NCBI RefSeq assembly: GCF_004768545.1
Contig: NZ_CP038634.1
Span: 2,232,001 to 2,296,000 of the forward strand
DNA: 64,000 bases
Direction: 5' to 3'
Source: Cupriavidus oxalaticus
Lineage (GTDB): Bacteria > Pseudomonadota > Gammaproteobacteria > Burkholderiales > Burkholderiaceae
In this document: positions 16,389-29,117 of the stretch, one piece after another
How the letters are laid out: each line of letters opens with the position of its first letter
Position numbering within the stretch: the first letter of the stretch is position 1
Program-made: the position numbers and the translations under genes
Notes under the pieces: generated by a model
What the model saw: the letters and a program-made list of their open reading frames with translations, nothing else
What the model was told of the DNA's origin: nothing
The model's database searches: none

Positions 16389-17654
16389 TTACTGCTTTGC
16401 CATCGGAACGTTCGGGTCGGCGAGGCGGGTGGGATCGACTTGCGTGCGCTGCTCGATCAGGCGGCGTGCGATGCGCAGGTCGCGCGCCGCGTTGGCACCG
16501 GCCGCGGCCTGGACGACATCGCCGTCGAGATAGCACAGCAGGAAGCTGTCCTCGCCAGGCGTGCCCCGTGCCACCATGCGATGCGACGGCAAGGGAATGC
16601 CGTAGATCTGCAGGTTCATCCCATACTGGTCCGACCAGAACCACGGCAGGGGCGCATAGTCGACCGGGAGGCCGAGCGCCGCTCGCGCCGCGGCGATACC
16701 CTGGTCCTGCGCGTTCTGCCAGGATTCCAGCCGCAAGCGCCGTCCGGCCCACGGATTCGGTGTCACCGCCACATCTCCCGCGGCGAAAATATCGGGGTCG
16801 GAAGTGCGGCAACCCTGGTCGACGATCACGCCGCCATCGCATGCCAGCCCGGCGTCACGCGCCAGCTCATCGTTGGGCACGAGACCCACACCAGCGACGA
16901 TGGCGTGGCACGTCAGCGTGCTGCCATCGGCAAGAGTCACCACGGCCTGGCCGTCGGCGCCTGGCGCGATGCCGGCGATGCGGGCGCCGAGCATGACGCG
17001 GGTGCCGTGCGCACCATGCAGCCCGTGCAGGTGTTCGGAGATCTCCGGCGGCACGGTACGCTCGCACAGCCGTCCTTGCGCTTCGACCACGGTAACGTCC
17101 GCGCCTTTCAGCCGCGCGGTGGCGGCGACTTCCAGCCCGATCCAGCCGCCGCCCACGACGACGATGCTGCGGCCCGGCCGAAGCTCCGGCGCCAGCGACA
17201 AGGCATCGCCAATCGTGCGCAACGTATGGCTCGGGGTCGTATCCGCGCCCGGGACGGCAAGCGCGCGCGCCTTGCCGCCGGTACAGAGGATCAGCTTGTC
17301 ATAGGACAGCATCTCTCCATCGGACATCTCCAGGCACTTCGCGGCCCGGTCTATGCGGGCCACGCGCGTGTCCACCCACCACTCCACCCTGAGCGCCTCG
17401 AACGCCTCCGGCTTGTGCAGCCACGTGCTGGCGGGCGCCGCTTCGCCGGCAAGCACGGCCTTGGATAACGGTGGCCGCTCGTACGGTGGATGGGCCTCGT
17501 CGCCGATAAGCACGAGCCGGCCGGCGAAACCTTCGCTGCGCAGCGTCTGGGCGGCCCAGCCGCCGGCCTGTCCCGCGCCGACGATGACGATGGTGGCGGC
17601 TGGCGCCATGGCCGTCGCTACGGCCGTCGCGCCCGGTGGTCGTTCGGAAGTCAT
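16389..17654 (-). CDS. FAD-dependent ferredoxin reductase of the ring dioxygenase (BphA4/AndAa type)
   Basis: About 421 residues from ATG 17654. Motifs in order: an FAD-binding GAGQAGGWAAQTL near residue 26, PPYERPPLSK, an NAD-binding VVGGGWIGLEVAATARLKGA near 168, and the FAD/C-terminal segment DIFAAGDVA. This is the glutathione-reductase-like ferredoxin reductase class. It passes electrons from NADH to the Rieske ferredoxin encoded just upstream. An unrelated plant-type reductase serves nag-type salicylate hydroxylases, so the reductase class argues for the anthranilate (And) type organisation alpha-beta-ferredoxin-reductase. The 32-base gap to the ferredoxin gene supports one operon. Confidence 0.87.
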   Translation of the reverse strand: MTSERPPGATAVATAMAPAATIVIVGAGQAGGWAAQTLRSEGFAGRLVLIGDEAHPPYERPPLSKAVLAGEAAPASTWLHKPEAFEALRVEWWVDTRVARIDRAAKCLEMSDGEMLSYDKLILCTGGKARALAVPGADTTPSHTLRTIGDALSLAPELRPGRSIVVVGGGWIGLEVAATARLKGADVTVVEAQGRLCERTVPPEISEHLHGLHGAHGTRVMLGARIAGIAPGADGQAVVTLADGSTLTCHAIVAGVGLVPNDELARDAGLACDGGVIVDQGCRTSDPDIFAAGDVAVTPNPWAGRRLRLESWQNAQDQGIAAARAALGLPVDYAPLPWFWSDQYGMNLQIYGIPLPSHRMVARGTPGEDSFLLCYLDGDVVQAAAGANAARDLRIARRLIEQRTQVDPTRLADPNVPMAKQ

Positions 17655-17686
17655 GTGCGTCCCTTGTGGTTGCTGGCCGGCACTTC

Positions 17687-18001
17687 TCAGCCGAGGTCGA
17701 GGTAGACCTTGTCGCCTTCGATGCGGACCGGATAGGTGCGGATGCCTTCGGTCAGCGGGGCGCACATCGCCGCGCCGTTGCGGATGTCGAACCTGCCCTG
17801 GTGGAGCGGGCATTCGATCTCGTGTCCTTCAAGAAAGCCGTCGCACAGGCGCGCATGGCCATGCGTGCAAATGTTGTCGGTTGCATAGACGTCGCCGTCG
17901 ACGCCATACAGGGCGATCTCCTTGCCCTCCACGGCCACGGCGATCACATCGTCCTGCGGGACGCTGGACAGCAGCGCTGCCTCGATCCAGGTTTCAGTCA
18001 T
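17687..18001 (-). CDS. Rieske-type [2Fe-2S] ferredoxin of the dioxygenase
   Basis: 104 residues, the normal size for these small electron carriers. The Rieske ligands are in [12 protein letters not shown] and [10 protein letters not shown] (Cys-X-His ... Cys-X2-His). It accepts electrons from the FAD reductase and passes them to the oxygenase alpha subunit. It lies 12 bases after the beta-subunit gene. The sequence fits biphenyl/anthranilate-type ferredoxins, not the Rieske domain of an oxygenase. Confidence 0.92.
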
Positions 18002-18013
18002 GAATGGCTCCTG

Positions 18014-18484
18014 CTAGATGGGGTAGATCAGCGAGTTGGGGATCATCTCGCTATCGAACACGCAGATGCGCGACGCGAAGCGCCAGCCCTCGGGCGTGCG
18101 CACGATGGTGTCGAGGTAGCGGCCGGCGTTGTACACATCGGTCATCTGGTCCGGCTTGGTGCGCAGCACGGCATAGTTGGCCTCGGCCACGATCCTGTCG
18201 GCACCGGCCTCCCGGATCAGGGGCGCCCCGACGATGTGGCGCTGGTAGTAGGGATCGTGGAACAGCGTCTCCCGGATGCCGTAGATGCGGTCTTTCAGCA
18301 TCCCCTTGCCCTCGAGCGACAGCGTGGCGAGCGGCAACCCGCGTTCGTGGTTCTCGCGCGGCTGAACCCGGTAGAGGCAGTCGTCGGTGAAGAACTCCGG
18401 CCAGCGGTCCCATTCGCCGTTGTCCACGGCGCTGGTGTAGTCGGCGTACAGCGCGAGCAGCGCGTAGTAGTCGGTAAAGTCCAT
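18014..18484 (-). CDS. ring-hydroxylating dioxygenase beta subunit
   Basis: A 156-residue NTF2-like protein that forms the structural small subunit of an alpha3beta3 oxygenase. Family features are the YALLALYADYTSAVDNGEWD start, FFTDDCLYRVQPREN and the GWRFASRICVFDSEMIP end. The gene begins four bases after the alpha-subunit stop. Length and sequence style match NagH/AndAd-type subunits. Confidence 0.88.
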   Translation of the reverse strand: MDFTDYYALLALYADYTSAVDNGEWDRWPEFFTDDCLYRVQPRENHERGLPLATLSLEGKGMLKDRIYGIRETLFHDPYYQRHIVGAPLIREAGADRIVAEANYAVLRTKPDQMTDVYNAGRYLDTIVRTPEGWRFASRICVFDSEMIPNSLIYPI

Positions 18485-18488
18485 GGCT

Positions 18489-19754
18489 TCAGACCTCCAT
18501 CACCTTGCGCCAGTAGGCGTACATGCCGCGGATCAGGGTCTCGGTGACCATGTGTTCGGTGTTCTCGGCGGTCTTGCCGCCCAGTTCGGCAATCACGCGA
18601 TGCCAGGGCTTCTGGGAGAAGCCTTCCTGCGAGCATTCGATGGCTTCGCCGTCGTCGGCTGACACAAAGCCGGCGGGCCCGAACAGATTGGCCTGGCGCA
18701 GCCGGCGCCGCGTCATGTCCTCGGTGTCGTCCTCGAAGCCGAAGTGCGTCCAGACGAAGTCGAAGGAGTCTGGGCCGTTGGGCTGGATATGGCGCGTGGA
18801 CACCGAATTGACCTGCTGCTGGAAGATCACGCTCGGGAAGACCGTCATCATCACCGCGGTTGGCTCGCCCCACCACGGCTCGTGGACGATGTCGAGGATG
18901 CGGTCGTCGTGCAGGGCCATCTGGTCCTTGAAGCTGGACACGCCGGAGGTCACGTCGCTCTTGCCGCCCTGGCCGCGGGTCGACACCATCGCGGCATGGC
19001 GGAACTCGGCATCCATCACCAGGCGGGCCTTGTTGTCCGCGCGCCAGAGCCCGAACGTGACAAACCACGTATGCAGCAGCCCGGGGTGGTAGGGGTCCTT
19101 GATGTTCTCCTGCATCAGCTTCCAGTTGCCCGGAATGCGCTGCTTGTTGTAGCCGAGGACCTTCAGCTTGCGGCCATTGAACAGCCGGTCGAAGTAGCCG
19201 AGGATGTCCGGCCCGAGGTAGTCCTCGAGCGAAGGGACGTCATGGTCGAACGAGGCGAACACCACCCCGCCGCGCGTGGCGACCCTCAGCTGCGTGAGCC
19301 CGTGCTCCTGCGGCCTGAAGTCGGCGGGCATGCCCCCGTTGACCTTGCCGTCCTGCTTGACGCCACGACGCAATGGCACCCCTTGCAGGTTGCCCTTCAG
19401 GTCATAGTTCCACTGGTGGTAGGGGCAGTGGAAATCCTTCCGGTTCCCGCTGCGCTCGCGGCAGAACTTCATGCCGCGATGGGCGCATACGTTCTCGATG
19501 ACGTTGATGTCGCCGTCCTGGTCGCGCACCAGGATCACGGACCGCTCGCCAAGCGTGGTGCGCTTGAAGTCGCCGGGATGCGGGATCTCGGCCTCCAGGC
19601 CGAGATAGTTCCAGTGACCCTGGTAGAAGCAGCGTTCGAGCTCGCGCTGGTAAAGCTGCGCGTCGGTATAGACGCGGAACGGGATGCGGCTGATGCTGTC
19701 GTCGGCCCACACTGGGCGGTCTTCATGGGAGGCTGTTGCCATGGCGGTTTCCAT
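18489..19754 (-). CDS. ring-hydroxylating dioxygenase alpha subunit (AndAc/NagG type)
   Basis: 421 residues from ATG 19754; ATG 19742 (MATASHEDRP), with GGAA at -8, is an alternative start. The Rieske centre is in VCAHRGMKFC and FHCPYHQW near residues 80-105. The mononuclear iron site is in NWKLMQENIKDPYHPGLLH near 205-225, with the carboxylate expected in the FDFVWTHFGFEDD region near 335. The enzyme adds O2 to an aromatic ring using electrons from the ferredoxin. Long stretches resemble, from memory, salicylate 5-hydroxylase (NagG) and anthranilate 1,2-dioxygenase (AndAc), so the substrate is probably an ortho-substituted benzoate. It is first in a five-gene operon and divergent from a NahR-like regulator. 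Confidence 0.88.
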   Translation of the reverse strand: METAMATASHEDRPVWADDSISRIPFRVYTDAQLYQRELERCFYQGHWNYLGLEAEIPHPGDFKRTTLGERSVILVRDQDGDINVIENVCAHRGMKFCRERSGNRKDFHCPYHQWNYDLKGNLQGVPLRRGVKQDGKVNGGMPADFRPQEHGLTQLRVATRGGVVFASFDHDVPSLEDYLGPDILGYFDRLFNGRKLKVLGYNKQRIPGNWKLMQENIKDPYHPGLLHTWFVTFGLWRADNKARLVMDAEFRHAAMVSTRGQGGKSDVTSGVSSFKDQMALHDDRILDIVHEPWWGEPTAVMMTVFPSVIFQQQVNSVSTRHIQPNGPDSFDFVWTHFGFEDDTEDMTRRRLRQANLFGPAGFVSADDGEAIECSQEGFSQKPWHRVIAELGGKTAENTEHMVTETLIRGMYAYWRKVMEV

Positions 19755-19990: not shown

Positions 19991-20893
19991 ATGGAACTGA
20001 AGGACGTCGACCTGAACCTGCTCGTCGTGTTCGATCAGCTGTTGCGGCAGGGGACCGTTTCCGGCACGGCCAGGGCCATGAACCTGAGCCAGCCGGCAGT
20101 CAGCAACGCGTTGGCACGCCTGCGGACCCTGCTGGGCGACCAGCTCTTTGTACGAAGCAGCAGGGGAATGCTGCCGACACCACTTGCGCAGGAACTGGCC
20201 GAGCCGGTCGGCCATGCGCTGGAATCGCTGCAGGCAACGCTCAGCCGCAAGATGACTTTCGATCCTCTGCGCAGCGAGCGCGCATTCCGGATCGCCATGA
20301 CGGATATCGGCGAGGTGCACTTCATTCCGCCGCTGATGGGTGCGCTCGGGCAACGGGCGCCGGGCGTGACCGTGACCACGGTGCGCAATACGGCGGTCGA
20401 CCTGGCGGCCGAGATGAGCCAGGGCAAGATCGACCTTGCTGTCGGCCACCTGCCTGAACTCAGTACGGAATTTTTTCAGCGGCGCCTGTTCCGCCAGCGC
20501 TACGTCTGCCTGTTCCGTCCCGGCCACGCGATGGACAAGAAGAAGGTCAGCATGCGGGACTTCGAAGCCGCCGAGCATGTCGTGGTCACGGCGGCGGGAA
20601 CGGGGCATGCGCGCGTCGACGAGCTGCTGGCCCAGGGCGGCGTAAAGCGCAGCATCCGGCTGCGCGTCCCGCATTTCGTGGCACTGGCGGACATCATTGC
20701 CACCACCGACCTGGTTGCCACCGTGACCTGGACGTTTGCGGAACGGTGTGCCAAGTATTTCGGGCTCAGGTATATCAATCATCCGTTCGCGCTGCCGGCC
20801 ATCCAGATCAACCTGTTCTGGCATGCCCGATATCATCGCGACCCTGCGAATCAGTGGCTGCGCAACGAGTTTATTGAATTGTTTTCGGAATAG
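19991..20893 (+). CDS. NahR/NagR-like LysR regulator
   Basis: 300 residues, preceded by AAAGG. The start MELKDVDLNLLVVFDQLLRQ, the HTH segment AMNLSQPAVSNALARLR, the MTDIGEVHFIPPLM segment and the closing NLFWHARYHRDPANQWLRNE closely follow the NahR/NagR/DntR group, whose known effectors are salicylate and related nitro- or hydroxybenzoates. It is divergent from the dioxygenase operon and most likely activates it. The combination suggests a salicylate-like or anthranilate-like inducer; which one cannot be settled by reading. Confidence 0.9.
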   Translation: MELKDVDLNLLVVFDQLLRQGTVSGTARAMNLSQPAVSNALARLRTLLGDQLFVRSSRGMLPTPLAQELAEPVGHALESLQATLSRKMTFDPLRSERAFRIAMTDIGEVHFIPPLMGALGQRAPGVTVTTVRNTAVDLAAEMSQGKIDLAVGHLPELSTEFFQRRLFRQRYVCLFRPGHAMDKKKVSMRDFEAAEHVVVTAAGTGHARVDELLAQGGVKRSIRLRVPHFVALADIIATTDLVATVTWTFAERCAKYFGLRYINHPFALPAIQINLFWHARYHRDPANQWLRNEFIELFSE

Positions 20894-21268: not shown

Positions 21269-23368
21269 CTAACGTGGCACCCCTGCCACCTCGATCAGCG
21301 CATCGACCACCACCACGCCGTCGGCGCTCGCCATCACCGGGTTGAGATCGACCGAGCGGATCGTGCCGCCGGCCGCGTGGACCAGTTGGCCGACTTGCAC
21401 CGCCAGCCGGCACAGCGCGGCGATGTCGGCCGCCGGCTCGTTGCGCACGCCGCGCAGCAGCGGCGCGATGCGCAGGCTGTCCACAGCGCGGGCGACATCG
21501 GCTTCGCTGCACGGCGCCAGCAGCACGGCGGTGTCGCGCAAGGTCTCGACATACTTGCCGCCGTCGCCGACCACCAGCACCGCGCCGAATACGGGATCCC
21601 AGTGCGCGCCGATCATGCATTCGCGCTGGCCGCGCACCATGCGCGCGATGACGATGCCTTCGCAATGCGCGTCCATGGCCTGCAGCGTGCGCATCTGGGC
21701 GCTGAACGCACGCGCTACTGCCTCCCGATCATTGCAGTGCAGGGCGACCAGCCCGTGCTCGCTCTTGTGCGGCACCTGGGGCGAGCTCGCCTTGACGGCA
21801 ACCGGCGCGCCGATGCGCTGCCACGCGGCCACGGCGGCGTCGATGTCGTGGCAAAGATAGTGCTCGACCACCGGCACGCCTGCCGCGGCGAGACGCTCCA
21901 GGCTGGCGGCTTCGCTCAGCGTCGTACCTTTCACCGGTGACGCCGGCACGGCAGGTGCAGCGGGTAGCGGCGGCTCGCCCTCGGCCGCGATCTGCCGCAG
22001 CCGCTGCTGGTGCGAGACCAGTTGCGAGAACGCTGCCAGCGCTTGCGCCGCGCAGGCGTAGGTCGGCACGTTGGCCTGCCGGAAGGCATCGGCCACCGGC
22101 GCTTGCCATACGGCGACCGCGATGGGCTTGCCCGCGGTGTCGGCAAACGCGGCGGCGTCGCGGGCAAAGCGCGGCACGTCGTAGCCCATGCCGGAGACGG
22201 GGATATCGAGCAGGAACAGGTCGGCGGCGGGATCGCGCGCCACCACCGGCAGCACCTCGCCGAACAGCGCGCTGTTGGTGAGCAGTGCGGCGGTGACATC
22301 GACCGGGTTGGCGGTGGCGGCGAAACCGGGCAGGCGCTCCGCCAGCGCGGCCTGCGTGGCATCGGACAGCGGCGCCAGCGCCAGGCCGGACGACGGCGCT
22401 GCATCGGCGGCCATCACGCAGCTCGCGCCGGAGTTGCTGACGACCACCAGCCGCCTTCCCCCGGCTTGCCAGCCGCGCAGGTACATCGGCGCGCAGCGTG
22501 CCAGCGCATGCGCATCGTCGACGCGCCAGATGCCGTGGCGCTGCAGGAAGGCATCGACCGCGCGGTCCTCGTTGGCGATGGCGCCGGTGTGCGACGCGGC
22601 GGCGCGCTGCCCGTCCTGCGAGCGGCCGGCCTTGGCCGCCACCACCGGCACGTTGCGCGCCCGCGCCACGCGCGCCGCCTCGGCCAGCATCTCGGGGTCG
22701 GTCAGGCTTTCCAGGTACAGCAGCACCAGCCGCACGCCAGGATCGTGCGCCACCGCCAGTGCCAGCTCGCCGACGGTGATGTCGGCCTGGTTGCCGGTGG
22801 CATGCACGTGGCGCACGCCGATGCCCTGGCCGCGCAGCAGACCATAGACCATCGCCGCCACGCCGCCGCTCTGGCTGACCACGGCGACCGGGCCATCCTG
22901 CGGCGGCACCTCGATGAACATGGTCGAAAAGCTGGCGATGGCGCCGCTGCCGAAATTGGCCAGCCCCTGGCTGTTGGGACCAACCAGCCGCAGCCCGCTG
23001 GCGCGCGCGGCGCGCACCATCTCGTCCTGCTGGCGCCGGCCTTCGGCACCGCCCTCGCCGAAGCCCGATGCGATCACGATGGCCGCCGCCACGCCCAGCC
23101 GCGCGCAGTCCCGCACGGCCTGCACGGCGGCATCTCCGGCGACGATGATGATGGCGAGTTCGGGGACTTCGGGCACCGCGTCCAGCGTGGGACAGGCGCG
23201 CAGGCCCTGGATGGTGTCGCGCTGCGGGTTGACCGGGTAGAGCGTGCCGACGTAGCCGTGCGCCTTCATGTAGTGGATGGGGCGGCCGCCGATCTTGTGG
23301 ATATTGTCGGAGGCGCCGATCACGGCGATGGAGCGGGGAGCGAGCAGTGACTGGAGGGGAGCGGTCAT
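21269..23368 (-). CDS. ADP-forming acyl-CoA synthetase (acetate-CoA ligase family), fused alpha-beta
   Basis: About 699 residues from ATG 23368. Domains in order: CoA-binding (SIAVIGASDNIHKIGGRP at about residue 13), a ligase-CoA domain with the phospho-His segment ASHTGAIANEDRA near 270, and a C-terminal ATP-grasp domain (PVAVKASSPQVPHKSEHG near 520). These enzymes join a carboxylic acid to CoA with formation of ADP, or run in reverse. It is the last gene of the IclR-headed operon, 40 bases after a Bug gene, and presumably activates the acid handled by the pathway. The natural acid is unknown. Confidence 0.87.
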   Translation of the reverse strand: MTAPLQSLLAPRSIAVIGASDNIHKIGGRPIHYMKAHGYVGTLYPVNPQRDTIQGLRACPTLDAVPEVPELAIIIVAGDAAVQAVRDCARLGVAAAIVIASGFGEGGAEGRRQQDEMVRAARASGLRLVGPNSQGLANFGSGAIASFSTMFIEVPPQDGPVAVVSQSGGVAAMVYGLLRGQGIGVRHVHATGNQADITVGELALAVAHDPGVRLVLLYLESLTDPEMLAEAARVARARNVPVVAAKAGRSQDGQRAAASHTGAIANEDRAVDAFLQRHGIWRVDDAHALARCAPMYLRGWQAGGRRLVVVSNSGASCVMAADAAPSSGLALAPLSDATQAALAERLPGFAATANPVDVTAALLTNSALFGEVLPVVARDPAADLFLLDIPVSGMGYDVPRFARDAAAFADTAGKPIAVAVWQAPVADAFRQANVPTYACAAQALAAFSQLVSHQQRLRQIAAEGEPPLPAAPAVPASPVKGTTLSEAASLERLAAAGVPVVEHYLCHDIDAAVAAWQRIGAPVAVKASSPQVPHKSEHGLVALHCNDREAVARAFSAQMRTLQAMDAHCEGIVIARMVRGQRECMIGAHWDPVFGAVLVVGDGGKYVETLRDTAVLLAPCSEADVARAVDSLRIAPLLRGVRNEPAADIAALCRLAVQVGQLVHAAGGTIRSVDLNPVMASADGVVVVDALIEVAGVPR

Positions 23369-23408
23369 GACAGGGGCCGTGGGGTTTGCGTGAGCTATGC
23401 GTAGGGGA

Positions 23409-24395
23409 TCAGTCGATGGTGGCGCCGGATGCCTTGACGACCCGGGCCCATTTGTCGATTTCGTGTTCGAGGAACCGCGCGGTGGCCGGTGGCGAGGTCC
23501 ATTCCGCGGCAAAGCCCTGCGTGGCGAAGCGCGCACGCACGTCCGCATCGTCGAGCACGGATTTCAGCGCCGTCCCGAGCGCAGCGAGCGCCGCGGGCGG
23601 CGTGCCGGCGGGCGCCAGCAGCGCGTTCCAGGCGCTGGCCTCGTAGCCCGGCAATCCTGACTGCGCGATGGTCGGCGTGTCCGGCGCGGCCGGCGAGCGC
23701 GCCGCGCCCGTGACCGCGAGCGCCTTGAGCTTGCCGTCGCGCACGAACGGCATGGCCGACAGCATGGTGTCGAACATCACCGTGGCCTGGCCGCCCATCA
23801 CGTCGGTCAGCGCAGGCGCACTGCCTTTGTACGGTACGTGCGTCATGCGCACGCCGGCCATGCTGTTGAACAGTTCCGCGGCAAGGTGGGTGGACTGGCC
23901 ATTGCCAGAGCTGGCAAAGGTGACCTGGCCGGGCCTGCTCCTGGCCAGCGCGATCAGATCGGCGACATTGCCCGCGGGCGTGGCGGGCGCGGTGACCAGC
24001 ACCAGCGGGCCGCGCGTGAGCAGGCTTACCGGCGCGAAGTCCTTGCGCGTGTCGTAGCCGGGCTTGCGGAACAGCGTCATGTTGATGGCATGCGCGGTGG
24101 TGGCCACCAGCAGCGTGTAGCCGTCGGGCGCGGCCCGGGCCGCTGCCTCGGCGCCGATATTGCCGCCGGCGCCGGGGCGGTTCTCCACCACCAGCGGCTG
24201 GCCGAGCTTGTCCGAGAGCTTCTGGCCGACCACGCGCGCAACGATGTCGGTGGGGCCGCCGGGCGGGTAGGGCACCACCAGCCGGATCGGCTTGACGGGG
24301 AAGGACTGCGCCAGCGCTGGCGGCATAAATGCCGCGGACAAGGCGAGGCAGGAAAGCAGGGCGAGCGCGTGCCGCCGGGATCGATTCGGTGCCAA
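23409..24395 (-). CDS. Bug/TctC-family periplasmic binding protein
   Basis: About 328 residues if translation starts at the TTG in 24395, which I prefer because GGAGA lies six bases before it and the product then has a proper Sec signal (RSRRHALALLSCLALSAAF, cut near PALAQ). No ATG lies at a suitable place. Family marks are PIRLVVPYPPGGPTDIVARV, NRPGAGGNIGAEAA, ASSGNGQSTHLAAELF and MTHVPYKGSAPALTDVMGG. Like most Bug proteins it has no transporter beside it. It lies inside the thiolase/CoA-ligase operon and probably captures or senses the acid substrate. Confidence 0.87.
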   Translation of the reverse strand: MAPNRSRRHALALLSCLALSAAFMPPALAQSFPVKPIRLVVPYPPGGPTDIVARVVGQKLSDKLGQPLVVENRPGAGGNIGAEAAARAAPDGYTLLVATTAHAINMTLFRKPGYDTRKDFAPVSLLTRGPLVLVTAPATPAGNVADLIALARSRPGQVTFASSGNGQSTHLAAELFNSMAGVRMTHVPYKGSAPALTDVMGGQATVMFDTMLSAMPFVRDGKLKALAVTGAARSPAAPDTPTIAQSGLPGYEASAWNALLAPAGTPPAALAALGTALKSVLDDADVRARFATQGFAAEWTSPPATARFLEHEIDKWARVVKASGATID

Positions 24396-24463: not shown

Positions 24464-24817
24464 CTATTCGCGCAGGAAACGCAGCAGCGTCCCTTCGCCG
24501 AAGCGCAGGAAGCCTGCGCGCACGCGCTCGCCGATCGCCACGCCGGGCTCGGCATGGCCCATCACCCGCGGGCCTTCGTCCAGCGTGGCCAGCACCAGCG
24601 TGTAGGGCGCCAGCGCGCGGAAGGCCCCGGCCGGGGCGCGGCTGATCTCGGTGACCGCATACACCGTGGCCAGCCCGCCGGCATCGCGCCAGCGCAACTG
24701 CAGGCTGCCGCAGGCGCGGCAGGCGTGCCGTTCCAGCGGCTGCCAGGCTCCGCAGTCGTCGCAACACTGGTAGCGCACCACGCCGGCATCGAGTCCGTCG
24801 GTATAGGGATGGCTCAT
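24464..24817 (-). CDS. DUF35 OB-fold protein with N-terminal zinc ribbon
   Basis: 117 residues. The zinc ribbon uses Cys19/Cys22 and Cys33/Cys36 (CDDCG and CRACG), followed by an OB fold (TVYAVTEISRAP ... YTLVLATLDEGPRVMGHAE). DUF35 proteins are obligate partners of certain thiolase-like enzymes, including the aldolase Ltp2 of steroid side-chain degradation. The start codon overlaps the stop of the thiolase-like gene by four bases (ATGA), as expected for subunits of one complex. It probably binds acyl-CoA and completes the active site of that enzyme. Confidence 0.88.
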   Translation of the reverse strand: MSHPYTDGLDAGVVRYQCCDDCGAWQPLERHACRACGSLQLRWRDAGGLATVYAVTEISRAPAGAFRALAPYTLVLATLDEGPRVMGHAEPGVAIGERVRAGFLRFGEGTLLRFLRE

Positions 24818-25956
24818 GGCGCGGCCTCCAGCACCAGGCTGACATGCGACGACAGCACGCCACCGTCGGCATGGAACAGCGCGCGGCGGCGCTTGCTCAG
24901 TTGACGTTCCCCGGCGCGGCCCGCGAGCTGGCGCGCGGCTTCGGCAAGATGCATCAGGCCGCCTGCCGCGCCGGAATGGCCGAACGCAAGCAGCCCGCCA
25001 TGCGTGTTGAGCGGCAGCGCGCCGGCGCGGCTGAAATCGCCGGCTTGCAGGCGCGCGTGCGCTTGCCCGCGCGGCGCCAGTCCGAGTTCTTCCAGCAGCA
25101 TGACCAGCGTGATGGTGAACGAGTCGTAGATCGCGAGGCAGTCGATGCCGTCCACGCTGCCGCCCGCCTCGGCGAAGGCGCACTGCGCGGCCTCGGCGGC
25201 GCCGGTCTGCATCACGTCGTCGATGGCGCCCAGGTGCTGGTGCCGGTGTGCCTGCCCTGCGCCGGCGATGCGCACCGGCGTGCCCGCGCCGGGTTCCGCG
25301 GAAACGATCACCGCCACCGCGCCATCGGAAATCGGGCAGCAGTCGGACAGCCGCAGCGGCGTGGCGATCGGGCGGGCGGCGCGCGCCTGCGCGAGCGACA
25401 GCGGCTCGCGCAGGTGCGCATCCGGATGGCCGGCGGCATGCTCGCGCATCAGCACGGCAAAGCCGGACAGCGCATCGGCATCCATGCCGGTCTCATGCAG
25501 GTAGCGCGACGCCAGCAGCGCGTAGTAGGCCGGCACCGAGGCGCCGTTGGGCACCTCGGCATGCGGCTCGCCCACCTGCGCCAGCGTCTGGATCGACTGG
25601 TCACGGCTCTGGCCGCTGAGGCGGTTCTCGCCCGCCACCACCAGCACGTGGCGGCAGCGGCCGGCGCGCACCAGCTCATGCGCCAGCATGGCCATCACGC
25701 CGCCGGTGGCGCCGCCCGCGGCCACGCCGTGGGCGTAGGCGGGCGTGAGCGAGGCGTATTCGCAGAAGCGGTCGGCCAGCATCAGGTGCGGCAGCGTGGT
25801 GGCATAGCCGCACAGCACGCCGTCGATGCCGGCGCGCGCCAGCCCGGCATCGGCCAGCGCGGCATCGGCGGCCTGTGCCATCAGCGCCAGCGGCGTGCTG
25901 CCCTCGATGCGGCCGAAGCGGGTGTTGCCGCTGCCGCGCAGGTAGGTGGCGAGCAT
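24814..25956 (-). CDS. SCP2-type thiolase-like enzyme lacking the nucleophilic cysteine (probable aldolase)
   Basis: 380 residues, close to the length of Ltp/SCPx thiolase-like proteins. The N-terminal region where thiolases carry Cys-Ala-Ser-Gly reads AAGGATGGVMA, with Gly82 in place of Cys. The C-terminal NTHGGLLAFGHSGAAGG, holding the two His regions, and a Tyr in AIYDSFTITLVMLLEELGL are present. That pattern, with a DUF35 partner encoded in an overlapping frame, matches Ltp2-like retro-aldolases better than beta-ketothiolases. It would cleave a hydroxyacyl-CoA. This is inference from motifs; alternatives are an inactive thiolase or a lipid-transfer-like role. Confidence 0.82.
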   Translation of the reverse strand: MLATYLRGSGNTRFGRIEGSTPLALMAQAADAALADAGLARAGIDGVLCGYATTLPHLMLADRFCEYASLTPAYAHGVAAGGATGGVMAMLAHELVRAGRCRHVLVVAGENRLSGQSRDQSIQTLAQVGEPHAEVPNGASVPAYYALLASRYLHETGMDADALSGFAVLMREHAAGHPDAHLREPLSLAQARAARPIATPLRLSDCCPISDGAVAVIVSAEPGAGTPVRIAGAGQAHRHQHLGAIDDVMQTGAAEAAQCAFAEAGGSVDGIDCLAIYDSFTITLVMLLEELGLAPRGQAHARLQAGDFSRAGALPLNTHGGLLAFGHSGAAGGLMHLAEAARQLAGRAGERQLSKRRRALFHADGGVLSSHVSLVLEAAP

Positions 25957-25957
25957 G

Positions 25958-27199
25958 TCAGTGCTTGAGCAGAGGGCATTGCGACTTCGATGCCGGCATG
26001 AAGGCCTGCTCGCCGGGTACTGTCGCCACCACCTTGTAGTAGTCCCATGGATACCGGGATTCGGCCGGCGTCTTCACCTCGAACAGGTACATGTCGTGGA
26101 TCATGCGGCCGTCCTCGCGGATGCGGCCGTTCCTTGCGAAGAAGTCGTTGATCGGCAGCGACTTCATCTTCTTCATCACCGCCGCGGTCTCGTCGGTGCC
26201 CGCCGCCTGCACCGCCTTCAGGTAGTGCATCACCGACGAATACGCGCCGGCCTGGCTCATGTTGGGCATCTTCTTCAGCTTCTCGAAATAGCGGCGCGAC
26301 CACGCGCGCGTGGCATCGTTCATGTCCCAGTAGAAGGCTTCGGTGAGCACGAGGCCGCCCGCGGTCTTCAGCCCGATGGCGTGGATATCGTTGATGTAGA
26401 GCAGCAGTCCCGCCATGCGCTGCGCGCCGTTGCGCGTGAGGCCGAACTCCGACGCCGCCTTGATCGCATTGATGGTGTCGCCGCCCGCATTGGCCAGTCC
26501 CACGACTTGCGCCTTGCTGGCCTGCGCCTGCAGCAGGTACGAGGCAAAGTCGCTGGCGCCGATCGGGTGGCGCGCGGCGCCCACCACCTTGCCCCCGGTT
26601 TCGTTGATCACCGCGGTGGCGGAGTCCTGCAGCGTATGCCCGAAAGCGTAGTCGGCGGTCAGGAAGAACCAGGTCTTGCCGCCGCGCTGCACCGTGGCGC
26701 GCGCGGTGGTATTGGCAAGCGCATAGGTGTCGTAGGCGTAGTGCACCGACACCGGCGTGCACAGGTCGTTGGTGATGCGCTCGGTGCCCGGCCCCGAGAA
26801 CACCACGATGCGGTTCTTCTGCTTCGCCACTTCCAGCACGGCCAGCGCTGGCGCCGAGGCGGCCACGTCGAGGACGGCATCGACATTGCCGGTGTCGTAC
26901 CACTCGCGCGCCTTGTTGGCCGCGATATCGGCCTTGTTCTGGTGATCGACCACCACCAGCTCGATCTTCCTGCCCAGCACCTTGCCGCCGAAATCGTCGA
27001 TGGCCATCTGCGCCGCGGTGGCGCTGCCGCGGCCGGTGACATCGGCGTACAGGCCGCTCATGTCGAGCAGCATGCCGAGCTTGACCACGTCGTCGGAGAT
27101 CGCAGTCTTGGGCTGTGCGTGCGCGGCGCCGCAGGCAAGCGCCGCGGCCAGGGCCAGGACGCCGGCGGCCCGGCGCTGGATCGAATGGCGAAGCTTCAT
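25958..27199 (-). CDS. ABC transporter substrate-binding protein (branched-chain amino acid/aromatic type)
   Basis: 413 residues with a Sec signal cleaved near GAAHAQ. The periplasmic-binding-protein fold of the Leu/Ile/Val family is clear: VVKLGMLLDMSGLYADVTG at the start of the mature protein, KIELVVVDHQNKADIAA, and FLTADYAFGHTLQDSA in the hinge region. In beta-proteobacteria such proteins often bind aromatic or other carboxylates. There are no permease or ATPase genes nearby, so it is an orphan or borrows a transporter encoded elsewhere. It lies one base from the thiolase-like gene in the same operon. Confidence 0.88.
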   Translation of the reverse strand: MKLRHSIQRRAAGVLALAAALACGAAHAQPKTAISDDVVKLGMLLDMSGLYADVTGRGSATAAQMAIDDFGGKVLGRKIELVVVDHQNKADIAANKAREWYDTGNVDAVLDVAASAPALAVLEVAKQKNRIVVFSGPGTERITNDLCTPVSVHYAYDTYALANTTARATVQRGGKTWFFLTADYAFGHTLQDSATAVINETGGKVVGAARHPIGASDFASYLLQAQASKAQVVGLANAGGDTINAIKAASEFGLTRNGAQRMAGLLLYINDIHAIGLKTAGGLVLTEAFYWDMNDATRAWSRRYFEKLKKMPNMSQAGAYSSVMHYLKAVQAAGTDETAAVMKKMKSLPINDFFARNGRIREDGRMIHDMYLFEVKTPAESRYPWDYYKVVATVPGEQAFMPASKSQCPLLKH

Positions 27200-27235: not shown

Positions 27236-28291
27236 CTAGACGGTAGCAATCGGCGTCACCGGCGACCCCACCGCCCCCGGCAGCCGCAGCGGCGGCGCGG
27301 TCAGCTGGAAGCGGGTGCGGCCATTGGCGCGCAGCCAGTCGGCCAGCTCGCGCAGGTACCACAGCTCGCCCAGCGGCAGGCCCAGCTTGAACAGGCAGTG
27401 GTGGTGCAGCGGCAGCAGCGGGTGGTGCCGGTCGCCATCGGGCGCGGGGCGGGCCGGGTAGCGCTCGACCGCGTAGTTGTCGGCGATCAGCGCGGCGATG
27501 CCGGCGTCGGTGATCCACTGCAGCAGGCGGTCGTCGCGGCCGTCTAGCGCGCAGCAGCTGTGGTGCAGCACGGCTTCGTCGGGCTCGCGCTGCATCGACA
27601 GCACCACCTCGGCAAAGCCGGTGCGCAGCAGCAGCATGTCGCCGGGCTCGACCTCGGCCTTGCCGGCGTCCATGGCGCGCATCAGCTCGTCATAGCCGAT
27701 GTTGCGGAAGTCCTGGCCGTACACGTGCGCCAGATCCACCAGCACGCCGCGGCCCTGCATGCCCTTGACCGCGAAGTTCTCGATGCCAAGCGCCTGCGCG
27801 GCGCTGTGGTCGTGGCCGCAAGGGTGGGCGGCGAAGTGGTCGTCTTCGGCGTAATCCACCGGACCGACGATATGCTCGTTGGCGCGGAAGCCGTTGTAGT
27901 AGACGCGCTCGGGCCGGCCGTCGCCGTCGGCATCGAACAGCGCGCCCACGTGCGCCAGCGCATCCCACTGCGTGCTGTACTGCAGGCACATCAGCACCTG
28001 GTCGTCGCTGATCACGTCGGTGGCGGCGGGATCGACCTTGGCGAGCGGGAAGTTGAGGTAGGGGCTGTCGTCGCGAAATGTCGGGCGCAACTGCGGCGGG
28101 TGCCGGCGCGGGTTGAGCTTGTTGCCGCCCGGGTAGTCCAGCGGCAGCGACAGGCAGAAGCTGATGCCGGCCCGCACCTCGCGCGCGCCCTTGACGACCT
28201 GCTCGGGGCCGATCAGGTTGACGCGGCCGAGCTGGTCGTCGGGGCCGAAATCGCCCCAGTTGGAGCCTTGCGGACGTTGCTTCCAGCGCAT
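27236..28291 (-). CDS. cyclase-family (kynurenine formamidase-like) hydrolase
   Basis: 351 residues of the cyclase superfamily, whose members hydrolyse amides, esters or lactones with bound metal. The metal site region reads QYSTQWDALAHVG, where formamidases have a His-Gly-Thr-His-X-Asp motif; one or both His residues are replaced, while Asp and the later His of the ALAH part remain. This seems to define the long subgroup to which the protein belongs. Further His-rich segments (HPCGHDHSA, LLPLHHHCLF) may also bind metal. It is the second gene after iclR, two bases apart. A role opening an ester or lactone before CoA activation is a guess. Confidence 0.75.
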   Translation of the reverse strand: MRWKQRPQGSNWGDFGPDDQLGRVNLIGPEQVVKGAREVRAGISFCLSLPLDYPGGNKLNPRRHPPQLRPTFRDDSPYLNFPLAKVDPAATDVISDDQVLMCLQYSTQWDALAHVGALFDADGDGRPERVYYNGFRANEHIVGPVDYAEDDHFAAHPCGHDHSAAQALGIENFAVKGMQGRGVLVDLAHVYGQDFRNIGYDELMRAMDAGKAEVEPGDMLLLRTGFAEVVLSMQREPDEAVLHHSCCALDGRDDRLLQWITDAGIAALIADNYAVERYPARPAPDGDRHHPLLPLHHHCLFKLGLPLGELWYLRELADWLRANGRTRFQLTAPPLRLPGAVGSPVTPIATV

Positions 28292-28292
28292 G

Positions 28293-29117
28293 TCATGCCT
28301 CCTCTCGCGTACGTGGCCGGGTAGCCGGCCGTTGGATGTCGGGTTTGATATCTGGCTTCACGGCGGCGTGCGAGCGCCAGTGCTCGCAGATGGCGTCGGC
28401 CTCGCGCAGCAGTGCTCGCGCCATCGCGGCCTCGCGGCTGGTGATGCGATCGTTGAGCGCCGCAATGCTGATCGCGCCCAGCGGGTAGCCGTCGGGGCCG
28501 GGCAGGGCGATGGCGATGCCGCCCATGCGCTCGACCACGACGTCCAGCAATACGGCGTAGCCGCGCTCGCGCGTGGCCTGCACATGGCCCAGCAGCATGT
28601 CGCGGCTGAAGCGCGGGTAGCGGCGCATGGCCGGGGCGATGCCGTCGAGCACAGCGTCGACCTCGGCATCAGGCAGCGCGGCCAGCAGCGCCAGGCTGCC
28701 GGCGCCGATGCCCAGCGGCCGGCGGCTGCCGATGTCCAGGTAGTTGGCGCGGATCGGGAAGGTGCCCAGCCGCAATTCGATGCAGACCGATTCGCAGCCG
28801 CTCGGCACGGACAGGATGGCGCTGTCCTCGAAGGCATTGGCCAGCCGGATCAGCGCGGGGCGTACCAGCGGGCGCAGGTCGGTGCGCGCCAGCGTGGCGG
28901 CATGCAGCGCCAGCCATTCGCGCCCCGGCGTGAAGGCCTTGGTGGCGGGATCGCGCTCAACCAGTCCCTCGGCCGCCAGCGTTTCAAGCAGGCGCAGCGC
29001 CGAAGCCTTGTCGACGCCGGCGGCCAGCGCCAGATCGGTCAGGCGGCTGTTGCGGGCATCGGTCAGCGCGCGCAGCAGGCGGCAGGCTTTCTGCAGCGAG
29101 GTGCTCGGGGTGGTCAC
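28293..29117 (-). CDS. IclR-family transcriptional regulator
   Basis: 274 residues. The N-terminal winged helix (SLQKACRLLRALTDARNSRL, then LALAAGVDKASALRLLETLA) and the C-terminal GAF-like effector domain (GIGAGSLALLAALPD, then RGYAVLLDVVVERMGGIAIA) are typical. The protein ends in a short charged tail. It heads the seven-gene minus-strand operon and, as usual for IclR proteins, probably senses the aromatic or carboxylic substrate of that operon. Its stop codon is one base from the start of the cyclase gene. Confidence 0.9.
   Translation of the reverse strand: MTTPSTSLQKACRLLRALTDARNSRLTDLALAAGVDKASALRLLETLAAEGLVERDPATKAFTPGREWLALHAATLARTDLRPLVRPALIRLANAFEDSAILSVPSGCESVCIELRLGTFPIRANYLDIGSRRPLGIGAGSLALLAALPDAEVDAVLDGIAPAMRRYPRFSRDMLLGHVQATRERGYAVLLDVVVERMGGIAIALPGPDGYPLGAISIAALNDRITSREAAMARALLREADAICEHWRSHAAVKPDIKPDIQRPATRPRTREEA

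Follow-up and report, generated by a model that had tools for sequence, protein, structure and literature searches.

The closest described counterparts of the gene pair considered here are steroid side-chain aldolases, in which a thiolase-fold protein is joined to a DUF35 protein. In CtSal, as described in PMC12329534, Tyr302 and Cys304 are used, the C304A, C304S and C304H variants being inactive; the same source gives Tyr294 as the base and Tyr344 as the acid of TcLtp2, replacement of His296 costing only 14-fold. Steroid aldolases are described as coupled through DUF35 to MaoC hydratases, with a two-chain ChsH1-ChsH2 arrangement (PMC11321319). A further pair, IpfD/IpfE, is proposed to remove an acyl-CoA group (PMC6063337), and an ipfD insertion mutant is reported not to grow on ibuprofen (PMC9195938; the MIBU8 and MIBU12 insertion loci are named differently in the text and table of this source, and such insertions can be polar). 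We analyzed a stretch of 64,000 nucleotides from Cupriavidus oxalaticus (contig NZ_CP038634.1, positions 2,232,001 to 2,296,000; the window hereafter), lying in a genome of 8.0 Mb, in which the gene of a thiolase-fold protein (THL) overlaps a DUF35 gene.

On balance, THL and the DUF35 protein would form a retro-aldolase complex of a beta-hydroxyacyl-CoA. Judged from the sequences, the pair most likely belongs to the Ltp2/Sal/IpfD class, with an active-site set of its own, and it sits in a conserved run of catabolic genes. A steroid substrate is improbable.

Active site of THL and its DUF35 partner

An earlier note, made from the window sequence, had claimed that the nucleophilic Cys of thiolases is replaced in THL, C-terminal His motifs and an Ltp-type Tyr being retained. 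Alignment with thiolases bears this out. The thiolase A-C-A-S-G motif reads G-G-A-T-G, the Cys column being occupied by Gly82; YDSF (Tyr277) is found where thiolases have HDxF or NExF; the GHP-type His motif is kept as GHSG (His327), and NTHGG is conserved. The second Cys column of thiolases (CxGG) corresponds to Ala363, within HADGG. THL matches Thiolase_C_1 at 153 bits and is borderline for Thiolase_N (25.8 bits, 27.5 in a longer frame, vs. a cut-off of 26.4). Gly82, Tyr277, Asp278, Ser279, Phe280, His319 and His327 are invariant in 44 of 44 aligned sequences (THL and 43 relatives at 64-94% identity, taken from the 120 relatives listed), and the invariance of Gly82, Tyr277, Ser279 and His327 argues that the loss of the Cys is not due to chance.

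The THL and DUF35 frames share ATGA, a four-base overlap, and the DUF35 protein carries the CxxC...CxxC ribbon reported earlier (Cys19-x2-Cys22 and Cys33-x2-Cys36, a C4 ribbon), scoring above cut-off for both PF01796 and PF12172. The same ribbon was found in all 52 DUF35 proteins recovered next to THL relatives; 61 loci had been tried, nine giving no usable match or start codon, and some of the 52 proteins come from loci beyond the sub-clade of the window defined below.

By alignment, Tyr302 of CtSal and Tyr294 of TcLtp2 map to Tyr277 of THL, Cys304 and His296 to Ser279, and Gln352 and Tyr344 to His327; Gly89 and Tyr165 of CtSal map to Gly82 and Tyr145. The Sal dyad is thus absent from THL, Ser279 holding the Cys304 column. 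If THL is an aldolase, the simplest layout would be Ltp2-like, with His327 as the acid; the match of His327 to Tyr344 is an alignment result rather than a structural one, since a gap of three residues directly follows Tyr344 in the Ltp2 row.

The complex would cleave a beta-hydroxyacyl-CoA to a shorter acyl-CoA (acetyl- or propionyl-CoA, for example) and an aldehyde or ketone. Tyr277 would remove the proton of the beta-hydroxyl, as Tyr294 and Tyr302 do in TcLtp2 and CtSal, the backbone of Gly82 would hold this hydroxyl, as Gly89 in CtSal, and His327 would protonate the enolate. Ser279 is not expected to replace Cys304 of CtSal.

Phylogeny and alternative activities

All Cys-less proteins fall on one side of a branch supported at 100/100, in a 41-row as in a 42-row tree. 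This side holds THL, CtSal, TcLtp2, IpfD, 4u4e, five paralogues from the same genome and further relatives, and excludes nine Cys thiolases. The branch remains, at 100/99, when three active-site stretches are removed from the alignment. Forcing the 17-row sub-clade of the window together with the nine Cys thiolases, motif columns being removed, is rejected by the approximately unbiased (AU) test (p 0.0196), for a grouping that was defined after the first trees were viewed. The placement in the aldolase class suggested earlier thus stands the phylogenetic check, THL not grouping with true beta-ketothiolases. From the trees were omitted one truncated protein (OWN_C2_1206888) and one poorly aligned protein (OWN_C1_514661) of the same genome; 21 and 16 of the 59 relatives obtained by genome search were used in the 41-row and 42-row tree, respectively, and TbSLP and BbsB are rows of neither.

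The sub-clade of the window (support 100/99 in the 42-row tree) is made up of proteins from Burkholderiales, Alphaproteobacteria and one actinobacterium. YDSF, the column Gly and the GH His are shared by all of the members from Comamonas, Methylobacterium, Azospirillum, Roseovarius, a Paracoccaceae strain and the actinobacterium Cnuibacter. CtSal and TcLtp2/IpfD fall in other sub-clades; owing to long end branches, the exact placement of IpfD in both trees, and of CtSal in the 41-row tree, is unsure.

In profile comparisons the best solved relatives of THL are 4u4e (9.1e-69) and CtSal 9myr (8.4e-62); the Cys thiolases 7yvy (3.9e-52) and 6esq (4.4e-47) score lower, TcLtp2 6ok1 (1.3e-47) lying between these two. 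THL shares with the Ltp2/Sal/IpfD class an SCP2-thiolase-type fold with a Thiolase_C_1 domain, the Cys-less column, the Tyr-Asp-x-Phe/Tyr motif, an adjoining DUF35 gene and clustering with characterized aldolases, and has neither the nucleophilic Cys nor the HDxF or NExF motif of beta-ketothiolases.

The closest folds to the THL model include 6esq, 7pyt and 5m3k, the partner chains of which match the DUF35 model. These folds, as the GHP-type His retained as in thiolases, would suit a thiolase or Claisen-type acyl transferase with a relocated nucleophile (Ser279, for instance), making or breaking a 3-ketoacyl-CoA on the model of a DUF35-bound acetoacetyl-CoA thiolase, BbsAB or PhlABC. We regard such an enzyme as unlikely, given the invariant Gly82, the Ala at the second Cys column, a Tyr instead of the His or Asn of HDxF/NExF, and the outcome of the AU test. 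The fold search was set aside as arbiter: it cannot decide, because the THL model matches aldolases and DUF35-bound true thiolases equally. Less probable still is the decarboxylation or hydrolysis of a CoA ester of beta-keto or malonyl type; in the account of PMC12329534, the Cys-less relative TbSLP decarboxylates malonyl-CoA very slowly, but is proposed to be an aldolase, and no such activity was found in CtSal.

For retro-aldol cleavage by the THL-DUF35 pair, which we prefer, the substrate has to carry a beta-hydroxyl, perhaps a tertiary one, or gain it elsewhere. The source of this hydroxyl is the weakest point of the interpretation and speaks against it, no hydratase being carried by the operon of the window.

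A broader proposal is possible, if doubtful. The Tyr277/Ser279/His327 sub-clade could represent a third catalytic design (Tyr base and His acid, to be compared with Tyr/Tyr in Ltp2 and Tyr/Cys in Sal), serving in at least two phyla a non-steroid pathway which cleaves beta-branched or tertiary beta-hydroxyacyl-CoAs impassable to beta-oxidation, sometimes along with AtuA lyases or MaoC hydratases. No description of the sub-clade or of the operon was found in partly capped or narrow searches of the open-licence literature, as judged by titles and abstract openings. If the sub-clade is made of aldolases, many of the names "thiolase family protein" and "acetyl-CoA acetyltransferase" are misnomers, and C-C cleavage beside hindered carbons by a route other than that of steroids becomes testable.

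The gene run and its conservation

The pair resides in a run of genes (Table 1) separated, from the IclR gene to the synthetase gene, by 1, 36, 1, -4, 68 and 40 bases, with the starts chosen here. For the TctC/Bug gene we read a TTG at 24395, preceded by a purine-rich stretch, the family scan having taken a frame from 24428, a position without a start codon; for the synthetase the ATG at 23368 was chosen, the longest frame starting at 23548 and the frame taken in family scans at 23383.

Table 1. Genes of the THL run and the neighbouring dioxygenase-like set (positions in the window)
Feature	Position	Strand	Remarks
IclR-family regulator	28293-29117	-	first gene of the run
Cyclase-family hydrolase	27236-28291	-	PF04199
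ABC-type periplasmic substrate-binding protein	25958-27199	-	Peripla_BP_6
THL, thiolase-fold protein, 380 aa	24814-25956	-	Thiolase_C_1; Gly82 at nucleophilic Cys column
DUF35 protein, 117 aa	24464-24817	-	PF01796 and PF12172; C4 zinc ribbon, OB-fold
Tripartite tricarboxylate receptor (TctC/Bug)	23409-24395	-	start as read here
NDP-forming acyl-CoA synthetase	21269-23368	-	start as read here
Ring-hydroxylating-dioxygenase-like set (alpha, beta, ferredoxin, reductase)	16389-19754	-	translations read, no family scan

No steroid-specific family was found by Pfam among the operon genes scanned, in agreement with the earlier remark that nothing else in the operon is steroid-like. The periplasmic binding protein would serve the import of an acid or of its ring form; the cyclase-family hydrolase, a possible supplier of the acid, may open the ring form; the NDP-forming synthetase, a possible activator of the substrate, would attach CoA before cleavage by the THL pair.

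At an E value of 0.001 or lower, 4206 relatives of THL were found among 7998 proteins scored. The nearest named ones among the matches listed are from Cupriavidus, and source names, where given, are "thiolase family protein" or "acetyl-CoA acetyltransferase" (120 listed of 4206). Of the 30 genomes shown for the genus, 20 contain a close THL orthologue (1e-158 or lower); at the order level, 35 of 399 genomes, the one of the window included, match P0043 at 1e-90 or better.

Gene content was monitored in 29 Cupriavidus loci found via THL itself; the record titles name Cupriavidus in every case but two, a Burkholderiaceae and a Ralstonia record. The IclR and binding protein genes are found in all 29, the DUF35 gene in 28, the remaining locus being cut by a contig end, the synthetase gene in 28 (L048 is cut), the cyclase gene in 28, and a Bug gene lies between the DUF35 and synthetase genes in 17. 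The unit IclR-cyclase-SBP (the substrate-binding protein)-thiolase-DUF35-(Bug)-acyl-CoA-synthetase is thus a conserved gene run in the Cupriavidus loci that hold the pair. In C. alkaliphilus (L027) the cyclase gene was not found between the IclR and binding protein genes, and the cyclase may therefore be dispensable to the unit.

In 24 order-level loci encoding proteins 55-76% identical to P0043, the DUF35 gene is always present (in one case 3.3 kb away) and the synthetase gene is found in 21, once on the opposite strand; IclR and cyclase genes are found in 11 and 8 loci, respectively. LivKHMGF-type transporter genes belong to the same-strand run in five of these loci (L126, L134, L137, L138, L142). 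The counts refer to 24 of 32 order-level loci, L145-L152 (38-50% identity to P0043) being left out; three of these eight (L149, L150 and L152, as L074, L075 and L077) lie beyond the sub-clade of the window in the 42-row tree, the other five being unplaced.

The dioxygenase-like set is accompanied by a divergent LysR gene (19991-20893) and an MFS-like gene. That the THL pair cleaves the product of this dioxygenase, taking an acyl-CoA side chain off a dearomatized ring as proposed for IpfDE after IpfAB, is very improbable: the set lies downstream, and IpfD/IpfE adjoin dioxygenase subunits on pIBU218, but it is found beside the unit in only one of the 29 Cupriavidus loci (L037, L038 and L048 end too early to tell), and the LysR gene, on the opposite strand, stands between set and unit. 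The dioxygenase was set aside as a THL partner on account of this single occurrence.

AtuA lyases, MaoC hydratases and other neighbours of THL relatives

AtuA-like ThnQ/ThnS are described, partly from unpublished work, as lyases of tertiary 3-hydroxyacyl-CoA (PMC12016498). An AtuA gene (PF07287) lies within 8 kb of the THL gene in nine of the 24 order-level genomes (G271, G286, G317, G330, G348, G383, G393, G479, G630), vs. 0.16 expected by uniform placing (all 41 AtuA rows used, fragments counted); the nine cases, belonging to six genera, are not independent. AtuA genes lie further downstream in L130 and L131, and upstream, in the opposite direction, in the rest, except for two loci (L126:10687-12002, L144:11159-12487) in which AtuA and a ferredoxin-like partner directly follow the DUF35 gene on the same strand. 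In L126, which comes from a fragmented genome, stops interrupt the AtuA gene. The L126 and L144 arrangement suggests that one pathway can make use of both an AtuA lyase and the presumed aldolase. No AtuA gene was found near the operon of the window; AtuA as a fixed partner of THL was ruled out for this genome, the association being strong but partial elsewhere.

Nine plasmid-borne relatives were picked, not at random, from 40 listed of 515 records. In six of them (Azospirillum, Roseovarius, Paracoccaceae, Salipiger, Achromobacter and Celeribacter plasmids) the thiolase-like gene has a MaoC-family gene no more than three genes away; AtuA adjoins in two (Comamonas, Methylobacterium), and Cnuibacter has neither. 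MaoC is a neighbour in three of the six plasmid relatives placed in the sub-clade of the window. PF01575 was confirmed in four MaoC genes scanned, a fifth being annotated MaoC with no Pfam match. In Azospirillum, Roseovarius and Paracoccaceae the PF01575 protein is paired with a protein of 126-127 aa giving no Pfam match, itself labelled MaoC in the Roseovarius record; such pairs resemble, in our view, ChsH1-ChsH2. Hydratase neighbours of this kind, and the AtuA association, speak for the retro-aldolase interpretation. The Salipiger, Achromobacter and Celeribacter proteins have YDCF and are closer, by comparison rather than by tree, to loci outside the sub-clade of the window; no DUF35 match was found at 1e-3 next to the Salipiger and Celeribacter genes.

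Since plasmid contexts differ, no single substrate is derivable from neighbours, and the attempt to name one in this way was dropped; mevalonate-like or other beta-hydroxy acids are a matter of speculation. Cnuibacter (L169:3481-7200) and Paracoccaceae (L172:10333-13966) have in common a glycerol-dehydrogenase/SDR/split-transketolase block beside the thiolase-DUF35 genes, with identities of 44, 38 and, for the transketolase halves, 63-64%. This block may hint at the nature of the carbonyl compound formed.

Paralogues in the same genome

The genome contains 14 Thiolase_C_1 and 8 DUF35 matches. Fifteen proteins were compared: THL, the 13 other Thiolase_C_1 matches and one additional protein. In THL and five paralogues the Cys column is occupied by Gly; each of the six also features the Tyr of YDxF and lies within 6 kb of a DUF35 match. 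Caution is due with the Cys-less label, three of these paralogues (C3_534344 and two on contig C7) having a Cys one position after the column (GGCS, GGCA). Among the nine others, eight have the column Cys and the motif His (Asn in one), and one is truncated there; for two of the nine, a DUF35 match lies no more than 6 kb away. A column Gly is thus accompanied by the motif Tyr throughout this set. Contig C7 (L116:9793-19998) hosts a thiolase-like/DUF35 pair in two very similar versions, which lie some 9 kb from each other, the second being truncated by the end of the stretch examined; with GGCA, YDDF and GQP, they read as another active-site set within the Ltp2/Sal/IpfD class.

Comparison with known systems

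The putative thiolase 4U4E of Sphaerobacter thermophilus is the top profile match of THL and has the Cys-less column, YDSF and a GHP-type His, but belongs to a different sub-clade; being uncharacterized, with no function seen for it, it lends none to THL. AtuA-like lyases (PF07287/PF23544), the genes of which adjoin several THL relatives, have tertiary 3-hydroxyacyl-CoA as described target, but are a distinct protein family.

IpfD/IpfE of Sphingomonas Ibu-2 and Rhizorhabdus pIBU218 are like the THL pair in the Cys-less column, the YDxF motif and the adjoining DUF35 and CoA ligase genes, and serve a non-steroid substrate, being proposed to remove the side chain of ibuprofen-CoA. The pIBU218 gene L161:13640-14827, located between dioxygenase subunit genes and a DUF35 gene, was taken as ipfD from its position and its DUF35 and CoA-ligase neighbours; its product shows a Cys-less column and YDAF, and the alignment places a Tyr in the acid column. 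As IpfE we took the DUF35 protein L161:13229-13627, which matches the OB-fold domain but has no zinc-ribbon match and no CxxC pair. Unlike IpfD, THL has no Tyr at the acid position, and its conserved unit includes no ring-hydroxylating dioxygenase. The earlier view that Ltp2-DUF35 pairs cleave steroid side chains holds for Sal and Ltp2, but is too narrow, IpfD/IpfE being needed for growth on ibuprofen. A different, non-steroid substrate for THL, also proposed earlier, is favoured by gene context; its novelty falls away, as IpfDE already is a case of non-steroid use.

Sal-Shy, the bile-acid side-chain aldolase of Comamonas testosteroni (9MYR; PMC12329534), has the fold and DUF35 partner of the THL pair, and the two have in common the column Gly (Gly89/Gly82), the catalytic Tyr (302/277), NTHGG and the larger clade. 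Sal proper is distinguished by YDCY with the essential Cys304, Gln352 and a C3H1 ribbon in a DUF35 protein fused to MaoC, in a bile-acid pathway; the THL pair has YDSF with Ser279, His327 and a C4 ribbon in a free-standing DUF35 protein, and no steroid gene was seen among the operon genes scanned. Ltp2-ChsH2, the C3 side-chain steroid aldolase of T. curvata (6OK1), likewise shares the Tyr base, the DUF35 partner and the Cys-less column. Ltp2 proper has YDHF and the acid Tyr344, and forms its own clade; THL has YDSF and His327, and falls in a separate sub-clade, yet the catalytic-acid column can carry a proton in both.
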